Shown here: one piece after another, positions 25,757 to 33,374 of the stretch
Numbering within the stretch: position 1 is the stretch's first letter
Layout of the letters: each line of letters begins with the position of its first letter
Source: Phycisphaerales bacterium Planc_01
GTDB taxonomy: Bacteria > Planctomycetota > Phycisphaerae > Sedimentisphaerales > Anaerobacaceae
NCBI GenBank assembly: GCA_001603075.1
Contig: LVBB01000143.1
Coordinates: forward strand, 1 to 64,000
Direction: 5' to 3'
Length of the DNA: 64,000 nt
Translations under genes and position numbers: made by a program
The notes under the pieces: generated by a model
The model's database searches: none
The model's input: only the letters and a program-made list of their open reading frames with translations
What the model was told of the DNA's origin: nothing

Positions 25757-26160
25757 TCACGAGAGAAGGCGGCTGGCGAGAAGACCAACGTAACCAACTG
25801 CTGCGCCAATCGTCGCACCCCACGCCAAGTCCACGATGGTAACAATCAGAGGCCAATCCTTGATCGTCGCCAAGTTGGTCAGATCATACGTGGCATAGGT
25901 CACCAGCCCGAATATGGCGCCGTGGACCAGCGCCCCCTCCACGAGTCATGATACGAAGCGGGCAGGACGACAAAGACAAGTATGCCCGCTATGAACAGCA
26001 GATAGAACAGGGTCGCTGCGAACCAGTTGGGATCCGGCCTGAGCAAGTACCCAAGATGCCGGCCATAGAATCCACGCGCGATCAGACCAAGCCAGATCCC
26101 ATCGATCAGGAGAAAGGTAAACAGCATCGCGAAATACAGCTTTGCATAGTAGACAACCAT
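25757..26160 (-). pseudogene. DUF2177 membrane protein gene broken by one frameshift
   Basis: The first part (26160 to about 25935) encodes the DUF2177 N-terminus: MVVYYAKLYFAMLFTFLLIDG, then WLGLIARGFYGRHLGYLL and YLLFIAGILVFVVLPAS. The second part, one frame away and ending at 25757, encodes the rest: ALVHGAIFGLVTYATYDLTN, then WPLIVTIVDLAWGA. Adding one G to the five-G run near 25934-25938 joins them into a continuous protein of about 134 residues with four membrane helices, the normal family length. GGTGAG lies five bases before the ATG at 26160. The break is either a true single-base deletion or a homopolymer sequencing error. The family is an inner-membrane protein of unknown role. Confidence 0.75.
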
Positions 26161-26379
26161 CGGTCTCACCTGGTCTGTGTCCTGTCGGATGGGTTCGTGA
26201 GGTCCATCGTCCCCGCAGTACCACACCCGCCCAAGCACAACGATTTCGGAGGACGAAACCCTTTGCCATGAACTACGGTCGTAGGGGTCCAGAGTTTGTC
26301 GATTCCCCTGATTTGACAGGGCAAACAGGGCCGATCCACGAATGGCACTGCCGTCCGCAATGACCGTATGGGCAGCGAG

Positions 26380-27130: not shown

Positions 27131-27367
27131 TCAACCCCGATCATGTGTAGGATCGCCGTCTCCCATGGGAGGCAAACTACGCACCACCTCTTCAATTCCG
27201 ATCATCCGCACCACCGCAGCGCACAGCTCTGGCGAGAGCTTCGGCCAAGCCTCAATCACCCGATCCAGGTCGGACCCGCGTAAACTTTCACCAGACTTTT
27301 CACGCTTCCCGATGCCCGCTATCGACTCTGATTTCGTAAGTCTTTGCTTCCCAGTGATTTGTTGAAT
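27131..27367 (-). pseudogene. Headless C-terminal remnant abutting the tRNA-Arg 3' end
   Basis: An open frame of 78 codons begins at the discriminator base of tRNA-Arg and ends with TGA at 27133-27131. It has no ATG before its best segment, LDRVIEAWPKLSPELCAAVV. That leucine/tryptophan pattern is familiar to me from the closing residues of short ORFs or phage-type integrases next to planctomycete integration sites. The family assignment is a recollection of pattern, not a search result. The position, directly against the 3' end of a tRNA, is where tyrosine-recombinase elements integrate, so this may be the stump left after element loss. Confidence 0.35.
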
Positions 27368-27440
27368 GCGCCCGGCAGGACTCGAACCTGCAACCTTCGG
27401 ATTCGAAGTCCGCGACTCTATCCAATTGAGCTACGGGCGC
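27367..27440 (-). tRNA. tRNA-Arg (anticodon TCG)
   Basis: The minus strand folds into a full cloverleaf of 74 bases. The acceptor stem is GCGCCCG with CGGGCGC, the D arm contains AGCTCAATTGGATAGAGT, the anticodon stem-loop CGGA-CTTCGAA-TCCG gives anticodon TCG (reads CGA), and the T arm contains GGTTCGAGTCC. The discriminator base is A and CCA is not encoded. A strong promoter lies just upstream (27459-27487). Confidence 0.95.
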
Positions 27441-27458
27441 AGCGACCGAGGTGGGGGC

Positions 27459-27487: not shown

Positions 27488-27638
27488 CCCTTTTCGCCGG
27501 CGGCTGGTGGGGTGGCGAGTCCGAGCATCGGGTCGATGGCCCGGCAATAAGGAGGCATTTTTCTGAAACATTGAGGCCACGGGCACGTCTTACTTGTGAA
27601 GTCAGAAAAACGATGGCATTTGGCGGGGCAGTTCCGAC

Positions 27639-30527
27639 ATGGGACCGCAGGAGTCGGCGTTATTGAGACGGTTTTGCACCGGGGCGGACGCCGAGGCGTT
27701 CGCCGAGTTGGTGCAGCGTTACGCGAGCCTGGTCTACTCGACCTGCTGGCGGGTGCTCAAGGACGAGACGGACGCGGCCGATGCGACGCAGGAGACGTTT
27801 TTCGAGTTGACCCGGCACGCCAGCCACATCTCCGGGTCGCTGGCTGGATGGCTCCATAAGGTTGCCACACAGAAATCTATCGATCTGCTCCGCCGCTGCG
27901 CGAGCCGACGGCGTCGCGAGGAAGTCTATGCTCGCACCCAGCCGGTCGAGGCCCGCTCGTGGCAGGACCTGTCGAGCCACGTCGACCTGGCACTGGACGA
28001 ACTGGATGAAGCGACGAAATCGCTGCTGCTGGAACGTTTCGTCATGGGCAAGAGCGCCGCGCAGATCGCACGGGAGCGCGGCGGCTCCAAGGCAACGATA
28101 TCACGCCGGATCAACGCGGGGTTGATGCAGTTGCGGGGCATTCTGCGGCGCAAGGGCCTGCTGGTCGCGGCCGGGGCGGTGGCTACTGTGCTCACCGAGA
28201 GCACCTCGCAGGCGGTGTCGGCCACGGCCCTGCACGGACTCGGCAAGATGGCCATGGTCGCAACGACCGAAGCCGCAGCGGTCGGTGCCAAGGCGGGGCT
28301 GGCCGAGGCCCTCGTCGGGGTCCTCGTCATCGGCGTCCTATCCATGGGTGTCTACATGCACCTTGGGCGGCCTGCCCAGCCGCTCGCAACACCTTCCATA
28401 CAGACGAGCCCCCTCTCCGGCGTCGGTGGAACGCCGGTGCCCGGACTCGACCGCATGATGGTGGCGGCCGAGTCGCGCGACAATGCACGGGAGAGGGCGC
28501 CCGATCCGAACGGGCCCGCAGCCGAGGGGCAATTCGGTCCGGGCTCGTCCGGCGTGTCGGCAAACGATCCCCCTGCGACCACCACGGCAATAGGTGACAG
28601 CACCCAACGGGCCGTGACGCCCGGACCTGAGCAGCCGCCGACGCCCGCCAGGATACTGCGCTTTGCGGGTGAGGCCTCGATCGGCGTGGTGTATCTCCAG
28701 GATGAAGACCTCATCGTCCCGGAAATCGTGAAGGGCTTCGAGCCGGGCCACGCACATGCGGATCTGGAGGAATTCAGCCGCGCACAAGGCGAGATCCACA
28801 TCCCGGCCGGCAAACGAGTCACCCTGTGCCTACGGGGCCCCGGCGTGACCCCTCAGCGTTATCTCGCGGCCATCGAATCGCTCGGCCCGGACGACCTCTA
28901 CGGCCTGCAATTCTTCAGTCCCCAGCCGATCCGCCTCGATGACAGCCTGATCGCCCCTCTTGCCAAGCTGACGGGGTTGCGGACCCTGGACCTTGGCGGC
29001 GTCGGCATCAGCCCGAAGGGCCTTTCGTTCCTGGCGGGGCTACCTCATATCAAGCAGCTCACCGCGCCGGCGGGACTGACCGACGCGGCGATGGCCGAGA
29101 TCGCAAGAATGCCGTCGCTGCGAATTCTCCACGTGAGCGGCGACCAGTTGACCGACGAGGGACTGAGGTCGCTGGGCAAGCTGATCTCGCTGGAGAGCCT
29201 GGATCTGTACGGCAATCCCGCCATGACGGACGAGGGGCTCAGTGCCCTGAGGAATCTGCACTCGCTTCGGCACCTGCGGCTGGGAGCGGGAGGCCGTTTC
29301 ACCGATCGGGCGATGCTGCACCTGGCCGCCCTGCCCTCGCTCAAGACGCTCTGCCTGGACTCTGGCCCGATCACCGACGAAGGGCTGCGCCATCTGTCCG
29401 CAAGCCGTTCGCTGGAGCGACTGCGCCTTCACTGGCTGGAGAGAATCACGGGGCGAGGTGTCGCGCACCTGGGCAACCTCCGGCAACTGAAGGCCCTCGA
29501 CATCAGCAGCGCCGCATTCACAGAGACCGATCTGGCGGCGATTGCTGCCATGGCAGATCTGGAGCATCTGGTCCTGCCCCGCTGCACCTTCACGGACGCA
29601 GGCGTCAGCCGGCTGGCGGCACTGAGGCATCTCAAGTACCTCTGGGTCAACGGCTCGCATGACTCGCCACTGACCGACACGGCGCTGGCGGCCATCAGCC
29701 GGATGCAGGATCTCGAAGAATTGCACATTGCAGGCACGGGATTCACAAATCAGGGAATCGCATTATTGCGGGGCCTCGATCGTCTGTCTGCCCTGCACCT
29801 GGTCTTCTGGCCCGGGCTGGATAACGAAACACTGCGTCTGCTGGCCGGACTGCCGGCCCTGCGAGAGCTGTCGTGGGCTTCTTCGGACCACGTGACGCTG
29901 TCGGGACTGAACGCGTTGAACGACGCGATTGGCCTGGAGAGTCTGTCGGCTGTCGACGTCCGCCAGGACCGTCGGGGGCTGGACCTGTCGGGACTGAAGA
30001 ATCTCAAGAATCTGAAGATCATCATGCGGCAGCAGGCGAGAACGGTCAGGAACGAATTCGTGACGGTCGGCGAGATGTTCTACGACGGCGACCTGGCGTG
30101 CCTGAGCGAACTGGCCGGACTCGAAACGCTCAGCCTTTACGGCCGCGGCATCGGAGACAAGGACCTCGCGCATCTGGCGTCTTTGACGAAGATCAAGCAC
30201 CTGGACATCGGGGGCGGAACCGATCTGACGGACGAGGGACTCAAGCACCTGTCGAACCTGCAGCGGCTCAACGGCCTTTACATCCACCAGAGTCGAATCA
30301 GCGGACGGGGTCTGGATTCTCTGCACCCGTTCCAGACGCTCCAAACGCTTCACATCAGTTCGACAGCGCCGCTCGACCCGGAGGCCGTCACCCGCTTGCA
30401 GGCCGCGTTGCCGGACCTTCAGAGCATAAGCATCACCCGGCCCGGACTGGCGGGGCTCAGGTCGAGGGGCCAGGTATTCTCTGCCCGGCAGAGTGCCTGG
30501 TGGCCAGCGGGAGGCACGCAGAGGTAG
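27639..30527 (+). CDS. ECF sigma factor fused to a membrane segment and a long leucine-rich-repeat domain
   Basis: The 962-residue protein starts with a complete ECF sigma factor. Region 2 (about 8-92) includes YASLVYSTCWRVLKDETDAA, QETFFELTR and WLHKVATQKSIDLLRR; region 4 (about 115-165) is a helix-turn-helix with LLLERFVMGKSAAQIARERG and SKATISRRI. A hydrophobic stretch at about 228-250 (ALVGVLVIGVLSMGVYMHL) would anchor it in the membrane. A Pro/Gly-rich linker (about 252-345) precedes a short beta-rich part and then about 20 leucine-rich repeats (from about 405 to the end) of the LTDEGLxxLxxLxxLxxLxL kind. The predicted topology is sigma domain inside, LRR outside. No separate anti-sigma gene is next to it. 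C-terminally extended ECFs are known in planctomycetes; the ligand and release mechanism are unknown. Confidence 0.8.
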   Translation: MGPQESALLRRFCTGADAEAFAELVQRYASLVYSTCWRVLKDETDAADATQETFFELTRHASHISGSLAGWLHKVATQKSIDLLRRCASRRRREEVYARTQPVEARSWQDLSSHVDLALDELDEATKSLLLERFVMGKSAAQIARERGGSKATISRRINAGLMQLRGILRRKGLLVAAGAVATVLTESTSQAVSATALHGLGKMAMVATTEAAAVGAKAGLAEALVGVLVIGVLSMGVYMHLGRPAQPLATPSIQTSPLSGVGGTPVPGLDRMMVAAESRDNARERAPDPNGPAAEGQFGPGSSGVSANDPPATTTAIGDSTQRAVTPGPEQPPTPARILRFAGEASIGVVYLQDEDLIVPEIVKGFEPGHAHADLEEFSRAQGEIHIPAGKRVTLCLRGPGVTPQRYLAAIESLGPDDLYGLQFFSPQPIRLDDSLIAPLAKLTGLRTLDLGGVGISPKGLSFLAGLPHIKQLTAPAGLTDAAMAEIARMPSLRILHVSGDQLTDEGLRSLGKLISLESLDLYGNPAMTDEGLSALRNLHSLRHLRLGAGGRFTDRAMLHLAALPSLKTLCLDSGPITDEGLRHLSASRSLERLRLHWLERITGRGVAHLGNLRQLKALDISSAAFTETDLAAIAAMADLEHLVLPRCTFTDAGVSRLAALRHLKYLWVNGSHDSPLTDTALAAISRMQDLEELHIAGTGFTNQGIALLRGLDRLSALHLVFWPGLDNETLRLLAGLPALRELSWASSDHVTLSGLNALNDAIGLESLSAVDVRQDRRGLDLSGLKNLKNLKIIMRQQARTVRNEFVTVGEMFYDGDLACLSELAGLETLSLYGRGIGDKDLAHLASLTKIKHLDIGGGTDLTDEGLKHLSNLQRLNGLYIHQSRISGRGLDSLHPFQTLQTLHISSTAPLDPEAVTRLQAALPDLQSISITRPGLAGLRSRGQVFSARQSAWWPAGGTQR

Positions 30528-30580
30528 CGGCGCCGTAGAGGCCGGCGTAGAAATGTATCGTGCGGAACGGAATGCGAGGT

Positions 30581-31419
30581 ATGGAACGATACAGGCAGTG
30601 GATTCTATCGGTCCTGGCTATCACTCTAATCCTGGTCGCGGGGGCGATGATCCTTTGGCTGGTGCACCCCCCTGCAACCGGCCCGCTGGCATTCGTACGG
30701 AAACTGCTGGACTGCCCTTCTGCCTCCGAGCGCCAGTCGGCCGATTCGATCACGTACAGGTTCCTGTTTCCCAACGAGGTCGAGGCGGTGCGAGGCACGT
30801 TGACGCTCGGGCGGTTCTCGGACAGGCGTCTCTGCGAGGGGGCAACGTGGCGTTTCGACAGCATCGACCAATGGCACGGGTTGGCTCCGTCTATCTGCGA
30901 GCAGGACAGACAATGGGTGGCCGAAACCAGAGCGGCTGGCAAATCAGTCGATGGCTGGTGGAGAATGGCAATTCGGCGTACGGTCGCGATCATCTGTTCT
31001 GGAGCATCCAGGCGTTGCGGTGCCTGGACCCGGAGAGCTTCGTCAACGAGATCGACATGATCGAGCATTCGGGCAGGACCGTGTGCATCCGTGTGACGGA
31101 GGGTCCGAGCCACTACGACTTCGATACAGACGCGCTCGACTGGAATCCGACGTCAATCCCCGACCCCTTCGTTGCTTTGACGCGCGAGCTGCACCACGTG
31201 TGGTACGACCTGTGCCGCGACGGCGATCTTGCAGAGGTCCGACAGAGAGAGCATTCGGCAACGATGGCCGAGAATCGCATGCGGCATCTCCTGTTCCTGA
31301 AGGACCCGACCCGCTCACAGATGGGTCCCCGACCCGGACGAGGGGAGACATCGCCCGAGGTCGTCGGCGACTCGGCCCGAGAGGCCTGGCGGAGCTACCG
31401 CGAGACCTTGCCGCCGTAA
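30581..31419 (+). pseudogene. Membrane-anchored hypothetical gene with a probable internal frameshift
   Basis: From ATG at 30581 the frame gives a signal-anchor (WILSVLAITLILVAGAMILW) and a plausible soluble part to about residue 127 (FDSIDQWHGLAPSICEQDRQ, then WVAETRAAGKSVDGWW), after which the reading becomes Arg-rich and senseless. From about 30955 the +1 neighbour frame takes over with sensible protein (VENGNSAYGRDHLFWSIQAL, then PESFVNEIDMIEHSGRT) and stops at 31419. Joining them near 30950-30965 gives about 278 residues. It follows the ECF-LRR gene by 54 bases on the same strand, so the two were probably an operon. I do not recognise the family. Sequencing error is an alternative to true decay. 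Confidence 0.5.
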
Positions 31420-31634: not shown

Positions 31635-33374
31635 ATGAGAAGCAGCCAGATGCTGATCCCGACGGTCAAAGAAGTCCCGGCCGATGCGGAGATCCCCAGC
31701 CACCAATTGATGATCCGAGCCGGCCTGATTCGCAAGGTCGCCAGCGGAACGTACACCTACCTGCCGCTCGGATGGCGAACCCTGAGGAAGATCATCGAGA
31801 TCGTCCGCGAGGAGATGGACCGCGCCGGGGCGCAGGAGATCCTGGTGCCGTGCCTTCAGCCACGCGAGCTGTGGCAGCAGACGGGCCGGGACGCCGATTA
31901 TGGCGAGACGATGTGCCGCCTCCAGGACCGCCACGGCCGCTGGAACGTGCTGGGCCCGACGGCCGAGGAGGTATTCACCTTCCACGCGTCGCACGAGATC
32001 AACTCGTACAAGCAACTGCCGATCAACCTCTATCAGATCAGTCCGAAGTTCCGTGACGAGTTCCGCCCGCGCTTCGGCGTGCTGCGGTCGCGCGAATTCA
32101 TGATGAAAGACGCGTACAGCTTCGACGCCAACCCCGAGAGCCTGCACAAGTCGTATATGGCGATGTACGACGCCTACTGCCGGGTCTTCCAGCGTTGCGG
32201 CGTCGAGTACGTGATCGTCGAGGCCGAGACGGGCGAGATGGGCGGCTCCGGCTCGCACCAGTTCACCGTCCCCTGCGCTTCGGGCGAGGACACCACCGTC
32301 TACACGGAAGACGGTTCGTATGCGGCCAATCTCGAAAAGGCGGCGGTCGATCCGCTGCCGAAGCAGCCGGCCGACCCGAACACCCCGGCCCCGGAAGACA
32401 TCCATACGCCCCACGTCGGGACGATCGAGGCGGTCTGCGACTTCCTCAAGACAAAGCCGGCCGAGATGATCAAGACGCTGATCTACTCGGTCGGCGACGG
32501 GGCCGTGGCGGCCCTGGTTCGGGGCGACCACGACGTGAACGCCGAGAAGCTCACGCAGGTGCTCGGTGGCGCGCATTCGGAGCTGGCGGACGAAGCAACA
32601 ATCCAGAAGGTCACCGGCGCCAAGGTGGGATTTGCCGGGCCGGTGGGCCTAGCCGGCCGCGTCGCGAAGTTGATTGTCGATCACGCGGTCGCGGCGATGG
32701 CCGTCGGTGTCACGGGCGCCAACCGCAGCGACTATCATACGAAGAACGTCGTGCCGGGCCGGGACTTCCCGCTCGACGGGGACAGCGTCGTGGTGGCCGA
32801 CATCCGCAACGCGGTCCCGGGCGACACCTACCAGGGCAAGCCCCTGCTCTTCAAGAGGGGCATCGAAGTCGGGCAGGTCTTCAAGCTCGGGACCAAGTAC
32901 AGCCAGAAACTGGGAGCGACCTTCCTCGACGAGCACGGGGTCGAGCAGCCCTGCCTGATGGGGTGCTACGGGATCGGGATCAATCGGATCATGGCCTCGG
33001 CCATCGAGCTGTACCACGATGAGAACGGGATCGTCTGGCCGATCTCGATCGCGCCGTTCGAGGTGCTGGTCACGCCGGTCAATCAGGACGATCCGGCCGT
33101 CTCGGAGGCCGCCGAGAGGATCTACACGGAACTGAAGGCCGCCGGCATCGACGTCCTGATCGACGATCGCGACCTGCGCGGCGGCGTCAAGTTCAAAGAC
33201 GCCGACCTGATCGGCATCCCGATCCGTGTCACGGTCGGCAAGAAGTCGGTCGTCGAGGGCAACGTCGAGGTGAAGCTGCGAGCGGAAACCGAGACCCGCA
33301 AAACGCCAATCGCAGAGGCATGCAGGACCGTCATAGAACTCGTGGAATCGCTCAAGAAGCCCCTGGATGCGTGA
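31635..33374 (+). CDS. proS: Prolyl-tRNA synthetase, bacterial type
   Basis: The 579-residue class II synthetase charges tRNA-Pro with proline in the cytoplasm. The opening MRSSQMLIPTVKEVPADAEIP with HQLMIRAGLIRKVASGTYTY is the standard ProS N-terminus. Motif 2 is present (SPKFRDEFRPRFGVLRSREF), as is the inserted YbaK-like editing domain of bacterial ProS between about residues 225 and 405. Motif 3 appears as GCYGIGINRIMASAIE, and the C-terminal anticodon-binding domain carries IDVLIDDRDLRGGVKFKDAD. Length is normal. It is expected to be single copy and makes a good phylogenetic marker for the host. Confidence 0.97.
   Translation: MRSSQMLIPTVKEVPADAEIPSHQLMIRAGLIRKVASGTYTYLPLGWRTLRKIIEIVREEMDRAGAQEILVPCLQPRELWQQTGRDADYGETMCRLQDRHGRWNVLGPTAEEVFTFHASHEINSYKQLPINLYQISPKFRDEFRPRFGVLRSREFMMKDAYSFDANPESLHKSYMAMYDAYCRVFQRCGVEYVIVEAETGEMGGSGSHQFTVPCASGEDTTVYTEDGSYAANLEKAAVDPLPKQPADPNTPAPEDIHTPHVGTIEAVCDFLKTKPAEMIKTLIYSVGDGAVAALVRGDHDVNAEKLTQVLGGAHSELADEATIQKVTGAKVGFAGPVGLAGRVAKLIVDHAVAAMAVGVTGANRSDYHTKNVVPGRDFPLDGDSVVVADIRNAVPGDTYQGKPLLFKRGIEVGQVFKLGTKYSQKLGATFLDEHGVEQPCLMGCYGIGINRIMASAIELYHDENGIVWPISIAPFEVLVTPVNQDDPAVSEAAERIYTELKAAGIDVLIDDRDLRGGVKFKDADLIGIPIRVTVGKKSVVEGNVEVKLRAETETRKTPIAEACRTVIELVESLKKPLDA

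Follow-up and report, generated by a model that had tools for sequence, protein, structure and literature searches.

An ECF sigma factor with a membrane helix and a cap-LRR tail in a planctomycete, and a proposed one-protein transmembrane switch

In IutY of Pseudomonas putida (ECF243) one chain carries a sigma factor, a membrane segment and, on the outside, a signalling part, and the protein is activated by cleavage (PMC8999054). The protein described here, an ECF sigma factor that ends in a cap domain and leucine-rich repeats (LRRs), is likewise a single chain of sigma, membrane segment and outer part. IutY, however, contains a fused anti-sigma domain, for which the ECF-LRR protein gave no Pfam match, and is part of a cell-surface signalling system for iron starvation. 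In ECF52, i.e. SCO4117 of Streptomyces, a sigma factor, a membrane segment, a proline-rich linker and an outer binding-type domain make up one chain (PMC5826349). The ECF-LRR protein has the same layout, yet lacks both the zinc-finger anti-sigma domain that ECF52 has between sigma and membrane helix and its outer carbohydrate-binding module, and carries the cap-LRR part instead. In planctomycetes, ECFs with large C-terminal repeat tails of the WD40 type have been described (ECF57, Gemmataceae expansions; PMC8999054, PMC8567305). Some ECF57 proteins possess a WD40 tail whereas the present protein has LRRs, and the conserved cysteine pair that links sigma2 and sigma4 in ECF57 is missing from it. 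In contrast to the WD40-tailed ECFs, its repeat domain has secreted relatives.

The BlaR1/MecR1-BlaI (M56) systems are similar in that the cap-LRR part also forms the outer part of M56 proteins beside BlaI-like repressors, but there a zinc protease and a repressor take the place of the sigma factor. RpoE-RseA-RseB conveys an envelope signal to an ECF and includes a LolA-fold periplasmic regulator. Relatives of the ECF-TM unit (sigma, linker and membrane helix) have LolA-like proteins in their operons, a likeness based on one DUF2092 match below the cut-off and on a sequence pattern; sigma and membrane part are separate in the Rpo/Rse system and one chain in the ECF-LRR protein. The control of C-terminally extended ECFs without an anti-sigma factor, many of them planctomycete, is regarded as open in reviews (PMC8103513, PMC8999054).

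The ECF-LRR gene occupies positions 27639..30527 (plus strand, ATG start) of the window, the whole stretch of 64,000 nucleotides from Phycisphaerales bacterium Planc_01 that was analysed, and encodes 962 amino acids. Pfam identified Sigma-70 region 2 (PF04542, residues 24-86, 27708..27896, E 3.4e-12) and region 4 (PF04545, residues 118-166, 27990..28136, E 8.3e-6), and the N-terminus matched NCBIfam TIGR02937 (sigma70-ECF) above the cut-off with 6.9e-18. With regions 2 and 4 and without region 3 the protein is an ECF (group 4) sigma factor by Pfam and NCBIfam. Its cysteines are located at 13, 36 and 87, none of them in region 4. Beyond the predicted membrane helix there are, all on the plus strand, a disordered linker rich in Pro, Gly and Ser (residues 243-334, 28365..28640, pLDDT <50), a cap domain delimited by profile A3 (residues 335-448, 28641..28982) and a solenoid of some 20 LRRs (residues 420-933, 28896..30437), whose first residues lie within the last part of the cap profile. 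LRR_14, LRR_6 and LRR_4 were above the Pfam cut-off within residues ~441-883. An AlphaFold2 model built with four rows displayed a confident solenoid of about 20 strand-helix units with a pLDDT of mostly 75-94 from residue ~440 to 920, and its 50 best Foldseek matches were LRR proteins, with chains of a Roco protein, internalin A, ribonuclease inhibitor and TIR1/COI1 among them. The sigma part was modelled poorly (pLDDT 34-77). Thus the original prediction of both sigma regions, a Pro/Gly-rich linker behind a hydrophobic segment and about 20 LRRs in one 962-residue chain was borne out. The structure prediction of the full chain that it had proposed succeeded for the solenoid and left helix and linker without a confident model.

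No anti-sigma domain, be it zinc-finger, FecR-like or other, was recognised by Pfam in the 962-aa protein. In agreement with the original prediction, an anti-sigma gene does not adjoin the locus either; the neighbours are tRNA-Arg (27366-27441, minus strand) and prolyl-tRNA synthetase (31635-33374).

The protein has one strongly hydrophobic segment, a 19-mer at 220-238 with a Kyte-Doolittle value of 2.12. For the predicted membrane helix (residues 220-239, 28296..28355, plus strand) a rough insertion energy of ~0 was obtained as compared to ~2.7 for a weaker segment at 172-190. Because the latter is too polar to insert on this rough scale, a single membrane helix was counted. The helix was found at the same position in all full-length relatives, and in the orthologue of genome G003 its roughly estimated insertion energy was moderate (~1.6). 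The AlphaFold2 model does not support the helix because pLDDT there, as in the linker, was mostly <35. Given its conservation in the relatives, the earlier reading of the hydrophobic segment as membrane-spanning still holds. Between sigma4 and the helix lies a juxtamembrane segment (residues 172-219, 28152..28295, plus strand) without Pfam match and without cysteine, which is conserved in alignments of 45 and 41 relatives with the family consensus LxxLLxENAVQAAPA....ELGKxALVGG. Since the searches revealed no anti-sigma domain, inhibition would have to arise from the tether or from this segment, which we consider a candidate inhibitory element.

Close relatives of the sigma-linker-helix part (E below 1e-24) were present in ~28 of 89 same-family genomes, with one copy in the genome of the window (G000). 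Sigma 2 and 4 were found in all 45 members collected as the family set. Orthologues with the order ECF-TM-LRR, for which a search had been suggested, were detected over the full length in G003 (65% identity) and G004 (53% identity); the LRR part is therefore not always a separate protein. A more distant ECF-TM-cap-LRR protein occurs in another genus (G043, L162:5864-8608). The tails of the members comprise cap-LRR, carboxypeptidase-regulatory plus thioredoxin-like, LolA-like, small SnoaL-like and Gly/Tyr-rich disordered types, where names without a Pfam match were read from the sequence by inspection. With a linker-helix profile, members were found thinly scattered over the phylum, in 13 of 392 genomes; by inspection, a number of them have WD40-like, ankyrin-like or carboxypeptidase-regulatory-like tails after the same linker. 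Thus the tail type is variable while the sigma-linker-helix part is kept. The WD40- and ankyrin-tailed relatives, together with published examples (PMC8567305, PMC8999054), mark repeat-tailed ECFs as a known planctomycete theme. At one locus (L162 / L096, G043:C92) three ECF genes of the family are arranged in tandem; their tails differ and include a LolA-like and a cap-LRR type.

Cap profile A3 was searched in 397 genomes of the class and gave 34 places in 22 of them. The module was fused to an ECF-TM part at three of the 34 places (window, G003 and G043; the G004 orthologue is outside this sample) and to BlaR1/M56 antirepressors at nine. It formed a separate gene directly behind an ECF gene at five places and directly behind an M56 gene at two. 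A few further separate genes were located one or more genes further downstream of ECF or M56, and the remaining places had neither within the fetched flank. The separate cap-LRR proteins start with a Sec-type signal peptide (by inspection). The LRR tail of the window protein is 56% identical to the cap-LRR tail of the M56/BlaR1 protein L055, which has an M56 domain (E 1.4e-39) and a Penicillinase_R repressor (E 1.6e-31) encoded directly upstream. Judged by sequence, a BlaI-like gene directly precedes nine M56 cap-LRR genes; L055 is one of the nine, and there Pfam confirmed the assignment. Behind short-tailed ECF genes there often follow, with gaps of -4 to 237 nt, genes for such secreted proteins, whose domains have homologues among the tails of other ECF members.

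This fusion (Rosetta-stone) evidence argues that outer module and ECF-TM unit may work together. Because it is fused to ECF-TM, fused to M56 or encoded as a separate Sec-type protein, cap-LRR appears to be an exchangeable partner of membrane switches that resides outside the membrane, which suggests an interchangeable sensor part. Relatives of the LRR part either have a Sec-type signal peptide or are placed after the last helix in proteins of the BlaR1 type. This also supports a location outside the membrane for the LRR of the ECF-TM-LRR protein, in line with the tethered sigma and outside LRR of the original prediction. Fusion is not required for function since the LRR is a separate protein in many relatives. 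BlaR1/M56 proteins with large cap-LRR tails beside BlaI-like repressors were noted at L055:4302-7911, L138, L139, L141, L143, L144, L150, L155, L157 and L161, and in the literature searched we met no report of a planctomycete BlaR1 with a leucine-rich repeat. The window's genome also contains several M56 proteins in very long frames (1062-2079 aa; contigs C153, C158, C123, C148 and C6), which suggests other large outer domains.

A predicted ECF-type self-promoter, TCTGAAACAT-N13-ACGTCTTAC, is situated at 27562..27593 (plus strand; 27562-27571 and 27585-27593), 77 nt before the ATG of the ECF-LRR gene. ECF group 4 promoters have AAC at -35 and CGT at -10 (PMC8103513). The AAAC...CGTC of the predicted element fits this pattern; the family consensus reads GAAT...CGMC. 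The family motif TTTGAATMAT-N13-RCGMCTTAT was upstream of ~45 members, usually 70-110 nt before the start, and the gap was exactly 13 in 41 of 45 upstream regions. It was missed by a simple scan for AAC-N15-17-CGT and found by PWM alignment. In a leave-one-out PWM of the 45 upstream regions the window motif scored 18.6 versus ≤12.6 in 100 shuffles, and 38 of the 45 regions were above all 100 shuffles. Such counts are inflated by related sequences, but the motif is common even to members that are only ~35-40% identical in the sigma part. The copy of the window is kept in G002.

Elsewhere in the window's genome there was no second match without mismatch. With ≤2 mismatches 18 matches compared to 16 in a reversed control; hence we claim no regulon beyond the own operon. 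The single site with one mismatch (C121:178795), before an oxidoreductase gene, was judged not convincing as a regulon member. In the 89 genomes 14 exact sites were found versus 3 in the control, 12 of them upstream of ECF-TM genes and one upstream of an ECF remnant. The 12 sites are expected partly by construction because the pattern was derived from those genes; the informative part of the scan is the near absence of sites elsewhere. Taken together, the upstream sequences make autoregulation with a very small regulon likely. In the remnant (L184, G018:C543) ~40 sigma residues are joined to a thioredoxin-like end, and a secreted LolA-like gene follows; the arrangement reflects an internal deletion or an assembly joint.

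The partner gene downstream (30581..31419, plus strand) would encode a membrane-anchored, degenerate relative of M91-like zincins. The original prediction of a membrane-anchored protein was correct in this respect, but the gene is not one ORF: the frame from ATG 30581 ends at 31060, and 31419 is the stop of a different frame. G002, a close relative, has an intact partner of 279 aa from its ATG, as compared to which the window copy has one base fewer near 30,925. Both frames of the split copy have coding-like third-position G+C, and the frameshift may be either genuine or due to an error in the assembly. The downstream gene, the conservation of which had also been proposed for scrutiny, is thus intact in G002, truncated in G003 and upstream of the ECF gene in G004. 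HExxH is absent from the same-genus copies, which have RELHH, HVLNH and RGLSC, and HELVH occurs only in distant relatives, one of which gave an M91 match below the cut-off (E 0.019). The partner profile had no match among PDB sequences, and the AlphaFold2 model from 2 sequences had a mean pLDDT of 52. We read the partner as a putative membrane-anchored pseudo-metallopeptidase that is too little conserved for a core part; being frameshifted in the window and truncated in G003 it is probably dispensable. No terminator was detected between the two genes, which is weakly consistent with co-transcription. For a DUF2177 membrane protein at 25900-26269 of the window, the match in its frame is limited to positions 1-72 of 124. 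This could be another frameshift close to the locus and may point to assembly error. In three genomes (L047:1081-3422, L048, L049) secreted-looking HELVH (M91-like) proteins immediately precede GLUG-like repeat proteins.

We think it reasonably probable that the ECF-LRR protein acts as a one-protein transmembrane switch. On the cytoplasmic side, the sigma domain would be tied to the membrane by one helix, with the cap-LRR module outside as the input part. Until the LRRs bind a partner or ligand, or the envelope changes, the segment between sigma4 and the helix would probably keep sigma inactive. Relief of inhibition would then most likely involve a cut near or in the membrane that frees sigma. 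The freed sigma would recognise the motif before its own gene and amplify its own operon, which in many relatives additionally contains a gene for a secreted LRR protein or another envelope protein. M50 site-2-type proteases are present in the window's genome and, being found in nearly all bacteria, lend cleavage weak support. Release by cleavage is favoured because of the analogy with IutY (PMC8999054).

Alternatively, outside binding might shift the conformation of the linker so that sigma becomes active at the membrane without any cut. The conserved linker segment fits this, and neither a cleavage site in the 962-aa protein nor a dedicated protease was identified. Yet RNA polymerase with a tethered sigma would be unusual, and IutY, an experimentally studied membrane-fused ECF, is released by Prc and RseP (PMC8999054), so that we take activation without cleavage to be rather unlikely. 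It is more doubtful still that the LRR is an output, i.e. that the locus is a self-amplifying device which places an LRR surface protein on the cell while sigma is controlled otherwise. The own operon is indeed the only detectable target, and in relatives it encodes secreted LRR or envelope proteins. But in BlaR1-type proteins cap-LRR stands where the sensor would be, and the analogy with BlaR1 makes this outer domain the input; the tail, too, varies while the sigma-linker-helix part is kept.

If the hydrophobic stretch did not span the membrane, the LRRs could serve protein interactions in the cytoplasm, as proposed for WD40-tailed ECF57. The only moderate insertion energy in G003 and the lack of a confident helix in AlphaFold2 would agree with this. 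The Sec-type starts of the separate LRR relatives, the M56 fusions, the helix in all full-length members and the disordered Pro-rich linker behind it speak against it and render a cytoplasmic LRR very improbable. Finally, the partner frameshift near 30925 and the truncation in G003 could indicate a decaying locus of little function, but the 962-codon frame is open and 53-65% conserved in two other species, and the promoter motif is kept in G002. We set decay aside as scarcely credible because the ECF-LRR frame is conserved.

Thus the ECF-cap-LRR protein is a real and well supported variant of the membrane-linked, C-terminally extended ECFs of planctomycetes. An earlier report of ECF-LRR fusions may exist, the literature search having been partial. 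The most useful additions are the sharing of the module with BlaR1/M56 and the family promoter motif. More tentatively, and with somewhat less confidence than doubt, we suggest that planctomycetes maintain a pool of outer sensor modules, cap-LRR and others, swapped between two unrelated membrane switches, the anchored ECFs and BlaR1/M56-BlaI. The modules would act either in-chain or as secreted partners whose gene comes next. In the anchored ECFs the juxtamembrane segment would replace the anti-sigma domain and control would mainly concern the own operon. The ECF-LRR locus and its relatives provide a testable case with a defined promoter motif for reporters. They also offer a natural fusion of sigma and outer module, matched relatives that have the two apart, and another kind of switch that carries this module.
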